In this document: positions 54,753 through 62,117 of the stretch, piece after piece | Layout of the letters: every line of letters begins with the position of its first letter | Position numbering within the stretch: the stretch's first letter is position 1 | From: Natronosporangium hydrolyticum | GTDB lineage: Bacteria; Actinomycetota; Actinomycetes; Mycobacteriales; Micromonosporaceae | Reading direction: 5' to 3' | Assembly (NCBI RefSeq): GCF_016925615.1 | Contig: NZ_CP070499.1 | Location: 1,674,001-1,738,000, forward strand | Length of the DNA stretch: 64,000 nucleotides | Program-made: the position numbers and the translations under genes | Notes under the pieces: model-generated | Told to the model about the DNA's origin: nothing | Databases searched by the model: none | The model's input: only the letters and a program-made list of their open reading frames with translations

Positions 54753-54936
54753 GGTAAACAGTCAACCACCTTTAGTGCCCACCCTTGACCCCGGGGTTCG
54801 GCCGCGACTAGCGTCCTGACCATCGGAAACCCCCCCGGCACTCGCGATCGGACCTCACGGAGGACACCCACATAGTCCAACTGTGAATGCTGCTCAGGCG
54901 GGACGGTCGCGTGTGCCATCCGAACGGAGGACGGGA

Positions 54937-55920
54937 ATGACAAACAAGATGACTTCGCGTCGCCACTGGCGCGCGTTGTCTATCGTGGCCGCCGCCAACC
55001 TGGTGGCGGTCGGGCTGGTGGCTGGGCCGTCACAGGCGCAGTCGGTGAGCCTGTGCAGCGGGACGGCTGAGAACTTCACCATCGCCGGCGACCTCGCGGT
55101 GCCGGCCGGTGAGTCCTGCAGCCTGACCAACGTGACGGTCACCGGCGACGTGGTGGTCCGGGCCGACGCCAACCTGACGTTGGCCGGTACCACCGTTGGT
55201 GGTGACCTGACGGTCCGGGCCGATGGCTTCGCCCTGGTGCTTGACTCCAGTGTGGATGGGGTGACCACGCTGCGGCAGGCGTTCGGGCTCTCGGCCGAGG
55301 GGTCGGAGCTGGCCGGTGGGGTGGATGCGCGTAACTCCGGGTTCTTCTTCAGCGAAGAGACCACCTACGGTGGTGAGCTGTTCTCGCGGAACGGCCAGAC
55401 CGTGGTGCTCGCCAGCTGGGTCGACGCGGATGTGCGTACCAACGAGGATCTGCTCACCGACGTGTCGGACACCGTGGTGACCGGCGGCGTCAACATCAAC
55501 CAGGCGCAGCTCGGTTCGGTGATCTGCCGGTCCGAGGTCGACGGCGAGGTGCTGTTGCGCAACAGCGGCGACCTGATCCAGCTCGGTGAGGGTGCCGCGG
55601 TGGCCGACTGCGAGTTCAACGTGTTCGGTGCCGGGGTGACCCTGCGGAACAACGACGCCGACATCCGGATCGGCGGCAACGTCATCCGGGGCGACCTGGT
55701 CTGTGTCGACAACACGTCGGCGCCGACCGGTTCGGACAACCGGGTACGGGGCGAGAGCGTCGGCCAGTGCGAGGACCTCGCGCCGGCCATGGCGACCTTC
55801 GGTCGTACCAGCCCGGAGCTGAGCACCGACTCGCGGACCGACGAGATCCGGGGCCAGATCGACGACCGTTCGGCGGAGGCGGCCACGGAGGCTGCCGAGG
55901 CCGGACCCGCCGACCTGTAA
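54937..55920 (+). CDS. Exported beta-repeat (bactofilin-like) hypothetical protein
   Basis: A 327-residue protein from ATG 54937 with GGAGG at 54926-54930. A signal peptide ends near PSQAQS (residue ~36). The mature protein has short repeats around TVTGDVVVRADANLTLAG and TVGGDLTVRADG, typical of a right-handed beta-helix or polymer-forming fold. Five or so Cys may pair. The C-terminal 40 residues are acidic. Function unknown; probably a cell-surface structural protein. A strong terminator follows. Confidence 0.75.
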   Translation: MTNKMTSRRHWRALSIVAAANLVAVGLVAGPSQAQSVSLCSGTAENFTIAGDLAVPAGESCSLTNVTVTGDVVVRADANLTLAGTTVGGDLTVRADGFALVLDSSVDGVTTLRQAFGLSAEGSELAGGVDARNSGFFFSEETTYGGELFSRNGQTVVLASWVDADVRTNEDLLTDVSDTVVTGGVNINQAQLGSVICRSEVDGEVLLRNSGDLIQLGEGAAVADCEFNVFGAGVTLRNNDADIRIGGNVIRGDLVCVDNTSAPTGSDNRVRGESVGQCEDLAPAMATFGRTSPELSTDSRTDEIRGQIDDRSAEAATEAAEAGPADL

Positions 55921-56029: not shown

Positions 56030-56764
56030 TCACCGAGGACGCACAGTCCGGATCACCGTGACGGTGCCGGCGGCGGCCGCCACGCCCAGCAGGCCCCAGA
56101 CGAACAGCGGGTCAACCCCGGCAGGGCTGGCGCTCAGGAAGCGGCTCCGGGTGCCGTGCGGCTCGGGTGGCGGTTGAATGTGCAGCCAGTCGACGATGCC
56201 GGAGCTCTCGAGATACTCCATGTGCCGGTTGACGAACTGCTCGCCGGTGTCGGCGAAGTCGCGCATCAGGTCGTTCTGGGTGCCGGCCCGGACGAAGGCG
56301 ATCTGCGGGTAGATCTCACCGTGGGCCTCCCGAAGTCGCATGATGAACTCCAGGTCGAAGTCTTCACCCGAGGCCCGCTCCATCCGGTCGAGGAAGACCT
56401 GGTTGTCCGCGTACACCTCGTTCGGCAGCAGCACGCCGAGGGTGGCGGCGAGTTCGCGGGTGGCGTCGTCGAGCTCGATGTGTTCCTCGGCGATGAACCG
56501 GCCGATCTCGCGGATCTGCTCGGTGGTGCCCTTCTCCTGGGCCATCCGGCCGGCGGGGATCTCCCACAGTCCGGCGTACCGCACCTTGATCAACAGGTCC
56601 CGGTCAGCGGGCCCGAGCGGCCCCCACTCGGTGTCGACGAAGCCCTCTTCTTGTGCGTGCGCGGGGATCGCTGGCAGCACCGCCACCGCCAAGCCGATCC
56701 CGGCGGCGGCCAACAGAGCTGCGAAACGTTGCCAGCGCACCCGACGCGGCCGGCGTGGAATCAT
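56030..56764 (-). CDS. DUF4142 exported protein with C-terminal membrane helix
   Basis: A 244-residue protein. ATG 56764 was chosen (GGAGG upstream); the frame runs on to 56845. A signal peptide (to about residue 37, PAHAQE) is followed by a helical DUF4142 domain (LLIKVRYAGLWEIPAGRMAQ...), which belongs to the ferritin-like group. Close to the end is a membrane helix (GLLGVAAAAGTVTVI). It is therefore probably anchored on the outer face. It is divergent from the haem-ferredoxin gene, with an inverted repeat in the shared control region. Confidence 0.8.
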   Translation of the reverse strand: MIPRRPRRVRWQRFAALLAAAGIGLAVAVLPAIPAHAQEEGFVDTEWGPLGPADRDLLIKVRYAGLWEIPAGRMAQEKGTTEQIREIGRFIAEEHIELDDATRELAATLGVLLPNEVYADNQVFLDRMERASGEDFDLEFIMRLREAHGEIYPQIAFVRAGTQNDLMRDFADTGEQFVNRHMEYLESSGIVDWLHIQPPPEPHGTRSRFLSASPAGVDPLFVWGLLGVAAAAGTVTVIRTVRPR

Positions 56765-56865
56765 GGCACCTCCATCCAGGATGCTGGTCTGAACCCCCCG
56801 AACATTACCGCCACAAAGGTTAGGCGTTCGGCGGCGAAAGGCCAACCGTAAAATGCGGGTCAGGA

Positions 56866-56890
56866 CACTCTTAGGCTTGTCTTAAGAGTG
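56866..56890. promoter_or_regulatory. Inverted repeat in divergent control region
   Basis: CACTCTTA (56866-56873) and TAAGAGTG (56883-56890) are perfect 8-bp arms around 9 nt. They lie between the DUF4142 gene and the haem-ferredoxin gene, about 105 bp upstream of the latter's -35 box. A regulator of the locus could bind here. Confidence 0.5.
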
Positions 56891-56995
56891 GCTTATAAGT
56901 GCAGCCCAGGGGCTTGTGGGGGGCCTGTATCCGGTCCTAGCATAACCCTGCTGAGCTGCGGTAAGGGCCCCGATATGGGAGTCAGACCACACTCC

Positions 56996-57023
56996 TTGAC
57001 ATTCCGTGTCGGTGGCCCATAAT
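56996..57023 (+). promoter_or_regulatory. Housekeeping promoter, leaderless
   Basis: TTGACA (56996-57001), 16-nt spacer, CATAAT (57018-57023): a near-consensus promoter, rare in such GC-rich DNA. Transcription should start about 57030, which is the G of the GTG start codon, so the mRNA is predicted to be leaderless. Confidence 0.75.
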
Positions 57024-57029
57024 TGCTTG

Positions 57030-57935
57030 GTGCGCAGTGTCCAGGAGAGTTTGCACCTCGTCGCCGCCACGGTGGGCTTCCTATCTTTCTTCTTGATGTG
57101 GCTCGCCGTGATGTGGGGAATGTTCCTTCGTAACGGATGGGCCTTGACCTGGGTTCGTCACTCGACGTTACTGGCGACCCACACCACGGTGGCGTTACTC
57201 GGGCTCACTCTCGGGGCGGTTCACGCCGCGGCGCAGCTAGCCAAGCCGGCGAACCTGTTCACGGTGCTCGATGTACTGGTGCCCTTCTATCACTGGCGGG
57301 ACCCGATCGGGACCGGGGTGGGGATCATCGGCCTGTACATCATGATCGCGGCGGCGATGTCGATCATGATCCAGCGTTGGTTGGGGTACAGCCGGTGGCG
57401 GGCGCTCCACACCATGACCTACGTGGGCTTCACTCTGGTGACCGCCCACGTCCTGATCTCCGGCTCGGACACCGGCATCGCCTTCCTCACCTACGGCGTC
57501 GCCGGTTCCTGGGTGGTCACGGTGGTGGTATGGCTACTCACCACCCCGGCGGTCGCCACCATCCGCAGCTGGCTCTCCGGCGGAGAGGAGAAGGCGGCAC
57601 GGCAGAAGGTGCAGGACGTCTCGGTGGATGTCAGCGCCCAGCGGTGCGCCCGATTCGGCTTCTGCGAGCACGAAGCCCCGGACGTCTTCCGGCTGCGCAG
57701 CGACGGCCGGCTGGCCTACCGGGCGTCGGTGCCGGCCGAGGAGGCCGCGCCGGTGGTGCGCGCCGCTGAGGTCTGCCCGGCCCGCGCCATCACCCTGAGT
57801 AAGGTCCCCACCAGCATGCTCACCCCGGGCCCGCCGGAGCCGGGCCGTCGGGACACTGGGCCACCCGAAGAACCGGTCTCGCCCGCGGTAGCGGGCGGTC
57901 CTCGCCGCCGGCGTACCCCCCGCTATCGCGACTAG
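57030..57935 (+). CDS. Di-haem membrane protein fused to 3Fe-4S-type ferredoxin
   Basis: A 301-residue protein; GTG 57030 fits the promoter and there is no ribosome site for other starts (GTG 57006 is inside the promoter). Five or so membrane helices resemble ferric reductase-like domains. His51/His65 and His127/His140, spaced 14 and 13 residues, could hold two b haems. From ~195 a ferredoxin-like domain has CARFGFC (206-212) and CPARAI (249), the Cys-x5-Cys...Cys-Pro pattern of 3Fe-4S ferredoxins. The tail is Pro/Arg-rich. It should pass electrons from a cytoplasmic reductase across the membrane. Confidence 0.82.
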   Translation: MRSVQESLHLVAATVGFLSFFLMWLAVMWGMFLRNGWALTWVRHSTLLATHTTVALLGLTLGAVHAAAQLAKPANLFTVLDVLVPFYHWRDPIGTGVGIIGLYIMIAAAMSIMIQRWLGYSRWRALHTMTYVGFTLVTAHVLISGSDTGIAFLTYGVAGSWVVTVVVWLLTTPAVATIRSWLSGGEEKAARQKVQDVSVDVSAQRCARFGFCEHEAPDVFRLRSDGRLAYRASVPAEEAAPVVRAAEVCPARAITLSKVPTSMLTPGPPEPGRRDTGPPEEPVSPAVAGGPRRRRTPRYRD

Positions 57936-58058
57936 CCGGGCCACCCGGACCGACCGGGCCACCCGGACCGACTGAGCCATCCGGACCGACTGAGCCACCG
58001 AACATGTGGGACATCCGAATCGATCGACCGGACCGACGAAGGTTGGACATCTTCACTC

Positions 58059-60476
58059 ATGACTCGTTTCCGCGGAAACTGGGAGACCGGACAGCGTCGC
58101 AGCCTCCGCCGGGTGCTCGTGGTGGGCGCCGGCCGCGCCGGTGTAGCCGCCGCTGAGGAGCTACGCCGGCAGGGCTTCGGCGGCGAAGTCCTGATCATGT
58201 CCGATGAACCCGAGGCCCCATACGACCGGCCATCCTGTTCCAAAGGTCTGCTGACCGGGCACAAGCGGCCCGCCGACGCCAAGATGCCGATGGGCGACGA
58301 CCTCGCCCTGCAGTGGTTGATGGGGCGCAAGGCCGCGCACCTGGACCCGGAGCGGCGGGTGGTCACCGCCGACACGGATGAGGAGTTCAGCTACGACGGT
58401 CTGGTCATCGCCACCGGTGCCCGGCCAGTGTGGCCCAAGGAGTGGCCGCTGAAAGGCGAAGAGGGCCTCTACACCCTGCACGGCATCAAGGACGCCTGGC
58501 AGCTCCGCAAAGCGTTGCAGCGGGCCAAGAAGGTCGTGGTGGTCGGCGGCGGCCTGACCGGCTGTGAGGTGGCTTACTCGGTCCGGAAGATGGCTCGGGA
58601 GTGCGTGCTGGTCAACACCCAGGCCCACGTCATGGGCAAGACGCTCGGGGACGCGGTGGGTGAGTACGTCACCGAGGAGGTCATCCGCGACGGCGTCGAC
58701 CTCCGGGCCAACCGGCGGGTGAAGGGCGTGGAGCGCTACAAGCGCGGCTGGGTGGTGGTCCTGGACGACGGCTCGGAGATCGAGACCGACGTGGTGGTCG
58801 CCACCATCGGCGAGCGGCCCGACACCAAGTGGCTGGCGGACTCCGGTTACGACATCTCCGACGGCGTCCTCTGCGACGAGAACCTGCGAGTGGTCGGCGG
58901 CGAGGACGTGGTCGCCGCGGGCACGATCGCCCGCTGGCCCAACCTGCGCTACCGTTCCGAACCGCGCCGGGTCGGGCAGTGGATCATGGCGTTGGAGCAG
59001 GGGCGGGCGGCCGCGTCGTCACTACTCGGCAGCGATCATCCCAGCCGCCCGGCGGCGCTGGTGCCGCGGTACTGGTCCGAACAGTTCGGCCTACGAATCC
59101 AGGTCTGTGGCGAGGTCGCGACCGGCGACGACATCGAGGTCTCGGTCGAGCAGCGCCGCGGCGGCAACAAGAACGTCGCCCGCAACGGCGTGATCGTCCA
59201 CTACCACAAGCGCGGCGAGCAGGTCGGCGTCGCGGCAGTGAACATGCTGAAGGCGTTCACCACAGTGGCTCGGGAGATGCTGGCGGCGCCGGCCCAGCTC
59301 GCGGAACCGCCGAAGCTTTCGCCGCCGGCGCCGCCGCGTCGCGCCGTCACCGCCCGCATGATCGAGGCGGCGCCGGCAGAACCGCCGGCCCGGCACACCA
59401 TCGACGTACCCGCCAGCGCGGTCCGGGACGTCTCCTACGAACCGTACGCTCCGGCGTACGCCCGCAGCGGTGGTGGTGGCCGGCGGGCGGCCGGCGATCA
59501 GCTCGCGCTGCCGGCAGGTCGCCGGCGGCGGGCGGAGCCAGCGCCGGAGCCGGTCGCGCACACCCCCGCCGAATACCGGCCCCGGCGGGCAGCGGCAGGT
59601 CATCCGCCCCCGGGCGAACGGCGCGGCTACCCCGAGCCGCCGTACCCGGAGCCCCGGTACCAGGAGCCCCGATTCCCGGAGCCCCGGTACCCCGAGCCCC
59701 GGTACCCCGAGCCCCGGTACCAGGAGCCCCGATTCCAGGAGCCCCGATTCCAGGAGCCCCGCTACTCCGAGGCCCCGCGCGGGCGGTCACGGCACCCCGA
59801 GCCGGCCTATCCCGAGCCGGCCTACCCTGACCGCTACTACCCGGACGCGCCGTACCGGGGATCGCCCCGCCGGCAGTCGATCGACCCACGTGAACCGGCG
59901 AAGGCTGGGCCGCCGCCGGGTCGTCGTCGCGAGCTTGCGGCGGCACCGCACCGGGGCCCCGTGCCCCAGGCAACGCCCGAGCGTCAGCCGGCCTATCCGG
60001 ACTACCGCCCCGAGCCTGGTTTCGGCCCCGGCGGCTACGGGCCGCCCGGGTACGGCGAGGCTGGCTACGGCGAGGCTGGCTACGGGCCGCCCGGGTACAG
60101 CGGCGAGCCTGGGTACCGGCCACCTGGCTACGGATCGGGGCCCGAGCAGGCTTCGCCCCACTATCCGCGCGATCCGCAGACGCTCGGGTACGACGGGCAT
60201 GACCCCGGTTACGAACACCGGCACCATCAGGCGAGCTATCCGGCCGAGCCCGACTATCCCCAGCCGGCGTACCCCGGCTACGGCCCGCCGGAGCCGTACC
60301 CCGGCTACGGTCCGGCCGATGAACCACCGGGTCGTTGGCGACCGGCCGCCGACTATCCGGTATCGCCTGCAGTGCAGCCGATGCGCCCGGTTTCGTCGTC
60401 ACCCCGGCCGGTATCGCCGGGCCGGTCGGGTGGGCCGAGAGATCGGTTCACCACGGAGTTCGCCGCTGTTCGTTAA
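58059..60476 (+). CDS. NAD(P)H/FAD oxidoreductase with long repeat tail
   Basis: An 805-residue protein from ATG 58059. Residues ~18-410 are a pyridine-nucleotide-disulfide-type reductase: FAD site GAGRAG (23-28), YDRPSCSKGLL (55-65), IATGARP (117-123) and NAD(P) site VVGGGLTG (161-168). It resembles ferredoxin/rubredoxin reductases. Residues ~410-805 are low-complexity: PEPRYP/QEPRF units (about 525-575), then GYGEAGYGPPGY units. The tail is probably disordered. Encoded after a ferredoxin-bearing membrane protein, it probably reduces that ferredoxin. Family members are normally ~400 residues. Confidence 0.85.
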   Translation: MTRFRGNWETGQRRSLRRVLVVGAGRAGVAAAEELRRQGFGGEVLIMSDEPEAPYDRPSCSKGLLTGHKRPADAKMPMGDDLALQWLMGRKAAHLDPERRVVTADTDEEFSYDGLVIATGARPVWPKEWPLKGEEGLYTLHGIKDAWQLRKALQRAKKVVVVGGGLTGCEVAYSVRKMARECVLVNTQAHVMGKTLGDAVGEYVTEEVIRDGVDLRANRRVKGVERYKRGWVVVLDDGSEIETDVVVATIGERPDTKWLADSGYDISDGVLCDENLRVVGGEDVVAAGTIARWPNLRYRSEPRRVGQWIMALEQGRAAASSLLGSDHPSRPAALVPRYWSEQFGLRIQVCGEVATGDDIEVSVEQRRGGNKNVARNGVIVHYHKRGEQVGVAAVNMLKAFTTVAREMLAAPAQLAEPPKLSPPAPPRRAVTARMIEAAPAEPPARHTIDVPASAVRDVSYEPYAPAYARSGGGGRRAAGDQLALPAGRRRRAEPAPEPVAHTPAEYRPRRAAAGHPPPGERRGYPEPPYPEPRYQEPRFPEPRYPEPRYPEPRYQEPRFQEPRFQEPRYSEAPRGRSRHPEPAYPEPAYPDRYYPDAPYRGSPRRQSIDPREPAKAGPPPGRRRELAAAPHRGPVPQATPERQPAYPDYRPEPGFGPGGYGPPGYGEAGYGEAGYGPPGYSGEPGYRPPGYGSGPEQASPHYPRDPQTLGYDGHDPGYEHRHHQASYPAEPDYPQPAYPGYGPPEPYPGYGPADEPPGRWRPAADYPVSPAVQPMRPVSSSPRPVSPGRSGGPRDRFTTEFAAVR
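59641..59775 (+). repeat. 15-bp tandem repeats coding EPRYP/EPRFQ
   Basis: About nine imperfect copies of a 15-bp unit (type CCGGAGCCCCGGTAC) encode alternating PEPRY and QEPRF pentapeptides. A second, Gly/Tyr-rich block with the unit GGCTACGGCGAGGCT lies near 60050-60100. Copies differ slightly, so this is older than the exact repeat in the MFS gene. Confidence 0.8.
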
Positions 60477-60560
60477 GTTTCGACTGGACCATTTTCGCGG
60501 CGCCGTCATTCCGGAAGCTCGCAGTGGCGGCGCCGGCGTCTAGGCGGGGAGCGCAGAGTG

Positions 60561-60604
60561 GCGGCGGCCGGCCGCGCTGTCCACGGGCAGCGACCGGCCG
60601 CCGC
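60561..60604 (+). terminator. Hairpin after oxidoreductase gene
   Basis: GCGGCGGCCGG (60561-60571) pairs with CCGGCCGCCGC (60594-60604); the interior GCTGTCC/GGCAGC extends the stem. It lies 85 bp after the oxidoreductase stop. Confidence 0.6.
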
Positions 60605-60825
60605 GTTCCCACAGGCCGTGGGCGGGAGGAGGAACCACGGCCTGAGCCTGTCATCAGCTGGTACGTGTGCCGCGCCGGTATGGTTGAAGACTTGGGGAAG
60701 AATCTGAGATTGTGGGTCACGCCATACTCTGGCCCCGCCGGGCGGCCCCTCCCGCGCCCCATTCTTTGTCCTCGTATAAGCGTGGTTTAAGGGAAGCTTT
60801 GCTACTTTAATTCTTCCTTGCTTTC

Positions 60826-60855
60826 TTGACATTGATCCACGGTGGCTTCTAGGTT
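60826..60855 (+). promoter_or_regulatory. Predicted housekeeping promoter
   Basis: TTGACA (60826-60831), 18-nt spacer and TAGGTT (60850-60855), a typical actinobacterial -10. It would start transcription near 60862, giving a leader of ~120 nt for the exported protein gene at 60984. Confidence 0.65.
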
Positions 60856-60983
60856 TTGTCCGTCGAGCTGGTGCGTCCACCCCACCGACATTGGACGAAG
60901 AGTACGCACGACAATTTCGATTCGGCGTCGCAGCTTCCGCCCCATCGACATTGTCACCAGGGACTTCAGAGAGGTGATCTATC

Positions 60984-62117
60984 GTGCAAGAACGTGACTC
61001 CTTGCGGGAGCGCGTGTTCGCGGGCCGGATGCGGCAGGACGCGCGCCGGCGGCGGGCCGCAGTGGCACGCAAAGGGGGTCGGCGTTTGGTTGCTGTGTTC
61101 GCCGGACTCGGTGTGGTCGCTGGCCTGCTCACGGTGACCCAGCTGACCTCGTCCGCGCTGGAGGACACCGAGGGTGGTCTTGGTGCGGCGGACTGCGAGA
61201 CCACGGTCACCGTCGAGGAGGTCTCGACCGATGAGGACCTTGAGCTCCACATTGAGGAAGACCCCGAAGGCCACGTGCACTACCACTACCGGAAGAAGGG
61301 TCGGGGCGGCAACGATGCGCCTCCGCCGCCGCCGGTGACCAACCCGGACTGTGAAGAAGGCGGCTCGGGCGGCGAAGACGGCGGGTCCGACGACGGTGAC
61401 GGTTCGGGCGACGGCAGCGGCCCGGGCGACGGTGACGGTTCGGGTGACGGCTCCGGCGATGGCGGTGAGGACGGCTCCGGCGACGGTTCCGGGGATGGCA
61501 CTGCTCCTGGCAGCAGCAACCCCGGTGGCGCCGACGGCAACAACAACGGCCTCGACGTACTCGGCCGCACCTGCGACGACAGCGACCTGCCGCTGCACAC
61601 CGGCTTCCAGTCGGACGAGCCGCAGTGCGTGGACGTGCACATGGGCGAGGTCAGCGCGGCGGATAACAACCCGACCCTGTTGATCACCGAGTTCCCCGAT
61701 TGGGTGGCGGTCGATGAGACCTTCACTATCACTGTGAGCACCCGCAACCTGGTCCGGGATCGGTTCCTGGGCGCTGGGGACGGCGGCTACTACCTGGAGC
61801 CGGGCTTCCTCGACGAGAACGGGGTCACCCGTGGCCACTTCCACGCGGGCTGCCTGAACCTGGTGGACGGCAATCAGGCGCCGGCCGCCAGCACCACCCT
61901 TGACCCGCAGTTCTTCGCCGCGATCGAGGACGGCGGCGGCGGCGCCGGGGTCGACTTCGTCACCGTGGAGATCCCGGGGCTCTCGGAGCCGGGCATGTAC
62001 CGCTGCATGGTCTGGGCCGGGGACGGCTCGCACCGGGTGCCGATGATGTCCTTCGCCCGCCAGCAGATCGCGGTGGACGCGGTGCGCATCACCGTTACCG
62101 ACGGCGAAGAAGGCTAG
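60984..62117 (+). CDS. Exported protein with Asp/Gly/Ser linker and metal-site motifs
   Basis: A 377-residue protein from GTG 60984 with GAGAGG upstream. A basic N-terminus (1-32) and one membrane helix (~33-52) anchor it. Outside there is HVHYHYRK (near residue 97), a Pro stretch, a ~50-residue Gly/Asp/Ser linker, then a C-terminal domain with CVDVHMGEV, GHFHAGCL and MYRCMVWAGDGSHR. Clustered His, Cys and Met suggest a metal (perhaps copper) site, but no cupredoxin signature is complete. I do not recognise the family. It follows the redox genes. Confidence 0.75.
   Translation: MQERDSLRERVFAGRMRQDARRRRAAVARKGGRRLVAVFAGLGVVAGLLTVTQLTSSALEDTEGGLGAADCETTVTVEEVSTDEDLELHIEEDPEGHVHYHYRKKGRGGNDAPPPPPVTNPDCEEGGSGGEDGGSDDGDGSGDGSGPGDGDGSGDGSGDGGEDGSGDGSGDGTAPGSSNPGGADGNNNGLDVLGRTCDDSDLPLHTGFQSDEPQCVDVHMGEVSAADNNPTLLITEFPDWVAVDETFTITVSTRNLVRDRFLGAGDGGYYLEPGFLDENGVTRGHFHAGCLNLVDGNQAPAASTTLDPQFFAAIEDGGGGAGVDFVTVEIPGLSEPGMYRCMVWAGDGSHRVPMMSFARQQIAVDAVRITVTDGEEG

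Follow-up and report, generated by a model that had tools for sequence, protein, structure and literature searches.

A candidate transmembrane electron-transfer locus with a ferredoxin-fused b-haem protein in Natronosporangium hydrolyticum

A locus of four neighbouring genes was analysed in a 64,000-nucleotide stretch of the actinomycete Natronosporangium hydrolyticum (bases 1674001-1738000 of the 5.7-Mb single-contig genome; hereafter the window, from whose start all feature coordinates are counted). These genes encode an exported DUF4142 protein, a ferric reductase domain (FRD) membrane protein fused to a ferredoxin (FRD-ferredoxin), an NAD(P)H/FAD ferredoxin reductase and a membrane-anchored exported protein designated EXP2, and all four are present as listed in the original prediction for this DNA. 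The locus is real and is conserved among soil actinomycetes. It represents an FRD-class variant that combines a ferredoxin input with a distinctive set of partners, probably regulated by an extracytoplasmic function (ECF) sigma factor. Its reading as a transmembrane electron-transfer system is well supported in kind, and it probably acts as an electron-export chain that is tied to an ECF-sigma envelope module and feeds DUF4142 and surface partners. The sequence observations of the original prediction were confirmed, and its interpretation was partly supported.

The FRD-ferredoxin membrane protein

The FRD-ferredoxin gene (57006..57935, + strand) encodes a protein of 309 aa, for which an alternative start, GTG 57030, agrees with the N-termini of homologues. 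The match of the window protein to Ferric_reduct (PF01794) was below the Pfam cut-off (23.7 vs 28 bits; E = 5e-5), and the same family was matched by 10 of 12 homologues at E < 1e-3, with a best value of 3e-9. Fer4_15 (PF13459) was matched by the window protein at E = 7e-6 and by all 12 homologues, which bears out the predicted fusion of a Cys-x5-Cys...Cys-Pro ferredoxin to the membrane protein. Two His pairs with spacings of 14 and 13 are present. Numbering from the first possible start puts them at residues 59/73 and 135/148, and numbering from GTG 57030 gives 51/65 and 127/140, the positions originally predicted. H59, H73, H135 and H148, together with the three Cys of the ferredoxin (C214, C220 and C257), were invariant in a 28-member alignment; the only exceptions in a set of 67 proteins were pieces lacking one of the two domains, and every intact homologue checked keeps these residues. 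In a sample of 198 genomes from across the phylum, only the window's genome had the full fusion and the remaining matches spanned one domain, indicating a narrow range. A second, stronger Ferric_reduct match lies elsewhere in the window's genome (G000:C1:3200260-3200607).

The AlphaFold model of FRD-ferredoxin (pLDDT 84, pTM 0.75) comprises five long helices, of which helices 2 and 4 bear the His pairs, and a ferredoxin domain set apart from them. From its secondary structure and the loop charges, the putative transmembrane b-haem region was assigned to 57057..57545 (+). Loop 3 and the stretch following helix 5 carry positive charges, and the presumed outside loops have no net positive charge; this pattern would place the C-terminal ferredoxin in the cytosol, the compartment of the reductase. 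The ferredoxin domain (57618..57803, +) was matched by phmmer to a CYP51-ferredoxin fusion (6mcw) and the M. tuberculosis ferredoxin (8amp), and by Foldseek to 1siz, 8amp and 4id8; to judge from these matches, it resembles the [3Fe-4S] ferredoxins serving cytochromes P450. The motifs and the model point to a five-helix FRD b-haem protein with a ferredoxin fused at its cytosolic end, and this protein presumably carries both haem and Fe-S.

The best PDB matches of the model in Foldseek were STEAP2 (7tai), [3Fe-4S]-type ferredoxins and the Streptococcus NOX (SpNOX), with weak E values of ~0.02-0.1 at a probability of 1.00. STEAP2 was the best match of the membrane domain. The STEAP metalloreductases differ, however, from the protein described here, which has four haem His and a fused ferredoxin in place of the STEAP NADPH domain; two or three haem His are reported for STEAP/YedZ in an FRD survey (Zhang et al. 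2013, PMC3591440). The long forms of FRE/NOX share two stacked b haems, four His in two helices and a cytosolic NAD(P)H donor with the proposed system, whereas here Fer4_15 is fused instead of the FAD/NAD domains, and the reductase comes from another family and has its own gene. A NOX-like oxidase that forms superoxide from oxygen at the cell surface, and in which the ferredoxin and reductase stand in for the usual fused flavin domain, would be in line with SpNOX being among the best fold matches and with the NOX-like four-His, two-haem layout. However, no FAD/NAD domain is fused to the FRD, and the conserved exported neighbours suggest a protein or metal acceptor; such an oxidase is thus considered improbable.

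The reductase and the conserved DUF4142 neighbour

The reductase gene (58059..60476, +) matched Pyr_redox_2 (PF07992; E = 1e-52) and Reductase_C (PF14759; E = 1e-5), and its best PDB relative was BphA4, the biphenyl dioxygenase ferredoxin reductase (1d7y; E = 2e-43). By these similarities, residues 1-~432 represent a BphA4-type (oxygenase-coupled) ferredoxin reductase, in agreement with the predicted NAD(P)H/FAD enzyme. Pairs of [3Fe-4S] ferredoxins and BphA4-type reductases that serve P450 show the same ferredoxin Cys pattern and reductase family, but the ferredoxin of the present locus forms part of a membrane haem protein, and no P450 was recognised among the conserved neighbours. The giant tail to which the original prediction drew attention exists (365 residues, ~440-805), and is rich in Pro, Tyr and Glu and built from 15- and 45-base tandem repeats. 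Since it is repeat-derived and missing from the 461-aa reductase of a same-genus relative, the tail is lineage-specific and not conserved; with close relatives lacking it, a functional role for the tail was dropped. Tandem repeats at window 57936-57999 (18-base, in the gap before the reductase) and 59628-60133 (15/60/45-base, in the tail) look recently grown.

Neighbour conservation was evaluated using 104 relatives from a scan of species genomes, 80 of which were retained with flanks; genus groups were assigned from record titles, and a proximity cut-off of 2 kb was applied to the informative loci (78 for the reductase and 75 for DUF4142). The nearest relative found was the metagenome-assembled genome 'Micromonosporaceae bacterium Dino_bin41', whose FRD-ferredoxin protein is 68-70% identical. 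The reductase lay within 2 kb of the FRD gene in 70 of the 78 loci, covering all 24 of the 24 genus groups, and DUF4142 did so in 62 of the 75 (15 of 22 genus groups). This neighbourhood spans Micromonosporaceae, Kineosporia, Kribbella and Pseudonocardiaceae, and its conservation is far above chance, adjacency by chance being estimated at ~1% or less per locus given the few DUF4142 copies per 5-10 Mb. The homologues were not scattered and the His pairs did not vary; scatter and variation were the two outcomes that the original prediction had named as counting against it.

Of 39 measured loci, 13 have a 4-base overlap between the FRD stop and the reductase start, and in 11 more the two are 0-5 bases apart (gene ends were set by a simple gene caller of our own, and a few of these loci are the same contig sampled twice). 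These frequent overlaps suggest that FRD-ferredoxin and the reductase likely belong to one operon. Two adjacent, separate genes encode the FRD and the ferredoxin in Frankia (L076) and are followed by the reductase gene, which supports the view that the fused domains form a functional pair. No plasmid-borne relatives were found. FRD-ferredoxin relatives with neither the reductase nor DUF4142 within 2 kb were also observed (L062, L064, L066, L099, L111 and L113); those of Saccharothrix adjoin an ECF sigma gene.

The DUF4142 gene (56030..56845, - strand; likely real start, ATG ~56764) is single-copy in the window's genome and encodes a signal peptide, a DUF4142 domain (PF13628; 62.8 bits vs a cut-off of 27; E = 5e-17) and a single C-terminal transmembrane anchor at ~residues 247-266. 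This anchor is typical of the DUF4142 subfamily at this locus, whereas ordinary DUF4142 copies lack it. H208 was kept in 60 of 61 homologues, and H122 and H175 in 50 of 61. A divergent arrangement is seen in the window genus, Asanoa, Catellatospora and Kineosporia, and a co-directional one in Planosporangium, Virgisporangium and Pseudonocardiaceae; since the orientation of the gene differs by lineage, the link has outlasted rearrangement. In a set of 61 genomes, the fusion was found in 12, and all 8 informative genomes with both genes have the fusion and DUF4142 adjacent; as for the other fusion genomes, the contig was too short in G026, and G034, G040 and G046 are without any DUF4142. DUF4142 is the most constant exported partner of FRD-ferredoxin. 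No DUF4142 in this kind of locus, or relevantly paired with a ferredoxin, was found in the literature searched, which did not extend to supplements and most subscription journals, and a search on COG4315 returned none.

An exported protein without a Pfam family is encoded at window 54883-55920 (+), adjoining DUF4142. Its homologue occupies the same place in a same-genus relative, where a second copy adjoins an ECF sigma gene.

EXP2 and the ECF-sigma envelope module

EXP2 (60984..62117, +) has no Pfam match, and consists of one N-terminal hydrophobic anchor, an acidic Gly/Asp/Ser linker and a conserved C-terminal domain (~61506-62114) with invariant His and four Cys. Regarding the motifs that had been predicted for it, HFHxxC and C..W are conserved, whereas HVHYHY lies in a variable linker, is not conserved and was dropped as a metal site. 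The structure model is of low confidence (pLDDT 52) and shows an immunoglobulin-like strand pattern; its top Foldseek match was a superoxide reductase (E = 3e-4, TM 0.32), and copper monooxygenases ranked lower. By eye, the EXP2 Cys is off the superoxide reductase ligand position, and this likeness was retained as a lead only.

Proximity of EXP2 to the FRD gene is confined to the window genus, G012, Asanoa and Kineosporia. Accordingly, the neighbourhood expected of all four families holds across actinomycete families for DUF4142, FRD-ferredoxin and the reductase, but for EXP2 only in some genera. Clustering of the neighbouring genes revealed Lipoprotein_15 (PF03640), ECF sigma, zf-HC2 anti-sigma and DUF1996 (PF09362) as recurrent families, and the order ECF sigma and/or anti-sigma - Lipoprotein_15 - DUF4142 - EXP2 was kept in fusion-free Micromonosporaceae (G003, G010, G022, G030, G031 and G032). 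Since it is kept in genomes without the fusion, this envelope module stands alone, and EXP2 belongs first to it rather than being the general fourth partner once proposed. FRD-ferredoxin and the reductase look like an electron-feeding addition to the module.

ECF sigma and zf-HC2 anti-sigma genes recur beside the module across relatives. In the window's genome, the best ECF sigma match (E = 2e-93) and an anti-sigma gene were located at 66145-67514, past the window end and ~4 kb from EXP2, and in a same-genus relative the anti-sigma gene directly follows EXP2. Lipoprotein_15 was not detected in the window's genome by a search that was also silent in all its controls. DUF1996, an exported His-bearing family, adjoins DUF4142 where other genera have EXP2 (L052 7815-8999, L053 7801-8928 and L036 10302-11360), and takes the EXP2-equivalent place in Catellatospora. 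A gene that resembles a DNA-3-methyladenine glycosylase gene by eye recurs beside the module (L147 11255-12175, L149 7735-8838, L150 7572-8588 and L152 9475-10428) and is also present at 67622-68542 of the window's genome, past the window end.

EXP2 adjoins DUF1775, which we take to be a copper-linked family, in two genomes, and a DUF305-like protein (named by eye) in another. These are weak signs of a metal acceptor, which is itself a guess. Alternatively, the locus could be a ferric or cupric reductase that acts on its own in metal uptake: the outer haem would pass electrons directly to Fe(III) or Cu(II), with the surface proteins being co-regulated metal binders only. The closest solved folds, which include the metalloreductase STEAP2, and the DUF1775 neighbours agree with this explanation. 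However, the conserved neighbours include no recognised metal transporter, and DUF4142 is far more constant than plain co-regulation requires, so that a metal-uptake reductase seems unlikely.

Proposed electron path and relation to known systems

BphA4-type reductases hand NADH electrons singly to small ferredoxins, and in four-His FRD proteins electrons cross the membrane through two stacked b haems. The complete path that had been predicted, from NAD(P)H through the FAD reductase, the ferredoxin and two b haems to the outside, is supported by domain order and topology. The cytosolic BphA4-type reductase would take electrons from NAD(P)H via FAD and hand them on to the ferredoxin domain, which is attached to the five-helix FRD protein at its inner face. 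Two b haems, one per membrane side and held between the conserved His pairs, would then carry the electrons to the outer face, where the most likely user is the membrane-anchored, His-bearing DUF4142 and, where present, Lipoprotein_15, EXP2 or DUF1996. The end use is probably the reduction of a bound metal (copper or iron) or of another oxidised envelope target under stress. We infer the outward direction of flow, the role of DUF4142 as direct electron partner and the regulation of the locus by the ECF sigma factor. Inward flow, in which an extracytoplasmic donor would reduce the haems and the ferredoxin to yield reduced ferredoxin or NAD(P)H, can be conceived because BphA4-type reductases are reversible in principle and gene content leaves the direction unfixed. 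Nevertheless, these reductases normally oxidise NADH, and the transfer from high-potential extracytoplasmic donors to a low-potential ferredoxin would be unfavourable, making this direction highly improbable.

Several observations weigh against export to this partner set. DUF4142, Lipoprotein_15 and EXP2 co-occur without FRD-ferredoxin, and can therefore function independently of it or with a different donor. DUF4142 is missing from the vicinity in about a sixth of the loci; the same three His are present in ordinary secreted DUF4142 copies and are therefore not specific to the FRD pairing; and no solved relative of DUF4142 was found by sequence search. The lack of a recognisable metal transporter among the conserved neighbours counts here as well. 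In addition, a shared promoter motif upstream of the module genes was not found: spaced-word counts of up to 11 were barely higher than the 7-9 of shuffled controls, and the only A+T-bearing word was DUF4142 coding sequence. The more specific proposal of an ECF-sigma-controlled actinomycete envelope redox system, in which electrons from NAD(P)H would leave through the ferredoxin-fused b-haem conduit and reach DUF4142, Lipoprotein_15, EXP2 and DUF1996, is offered as a tentative one.

ApbE or FMN-binding partners are the defining feature of the actinobacterial MsrQ-like systems published so far, and FRD clusters with NuoF-like donors have also been reported (Meheust et al. 2021, PMC8238504); DUF4142 is not mentioned in that paper. 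Like those systems, the present locus would use a two-haem FRD (PF01794) to feed extracytoplasmic redox proteins from NAD(P)H, but here a ferredoxin is fused to the FRD, the reductase is of the BphA4 type and the partners are DUF4142, Lipoprotein_15 and EXP2. Since FMN_bind and ApbE had no match anywhere in the window's genome, while control genomes gave matches, the locus is not the published flavinylation-based MsrQ-like system. A variant of MsrPQ, repairing oxidised methionine in envelope proteins with a stress link through the ECF sigma factor, would fit the relationship of the FRD to MsrQ and the envelope stress response suggested by the sigma/anti-sigma pair. However, no methionine sulfoxide reductase was recognised among the conserved neighbours (MsrP was not searched by family or genome-wide), and we assign this variant a low probability.

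The FRD survey names Fer2, Rieske, FMN and other fusions, and a text search for 4Fe-4S gave no match there (PMC3591440). At another locus (L154; G029:C28:45000-64500), an FRD gene with a long charged tail is followed by a NuoF-Fer4_15 fusion and a six-helix CcdA/DsbD-like protein. Upstream lie an exported protein and a gene resembling AA10 (lytic polysaccharide monooxygenase) genes; these two and the six-helix protein were named by eye. This NuoF-Fer4_15 fusion and the NuoF donors reported in PMC8238504 imply that a ferredoxin-type input is recurring and not unique. A description of the present gene layout was not found in the literature searched.

Exported DUF4142, Lipoprotein_15 and DUF1996 proteins are common, and to our knowledge no function has been assigned to these families. 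Their link to a transmembrane electron line and an ECF sigma/anti-sigma pair provides a direct functional hypothesis for all three. If the hypothesis is true, the widespread DUF4142, Lipoprotein_15, EXP2 and DUF1996 families would have a redox role, and the ferredoxin-fused input would join the known inputs of the FRD family, namely fused flavin domains, quinone and separate NAD-binding proteins.

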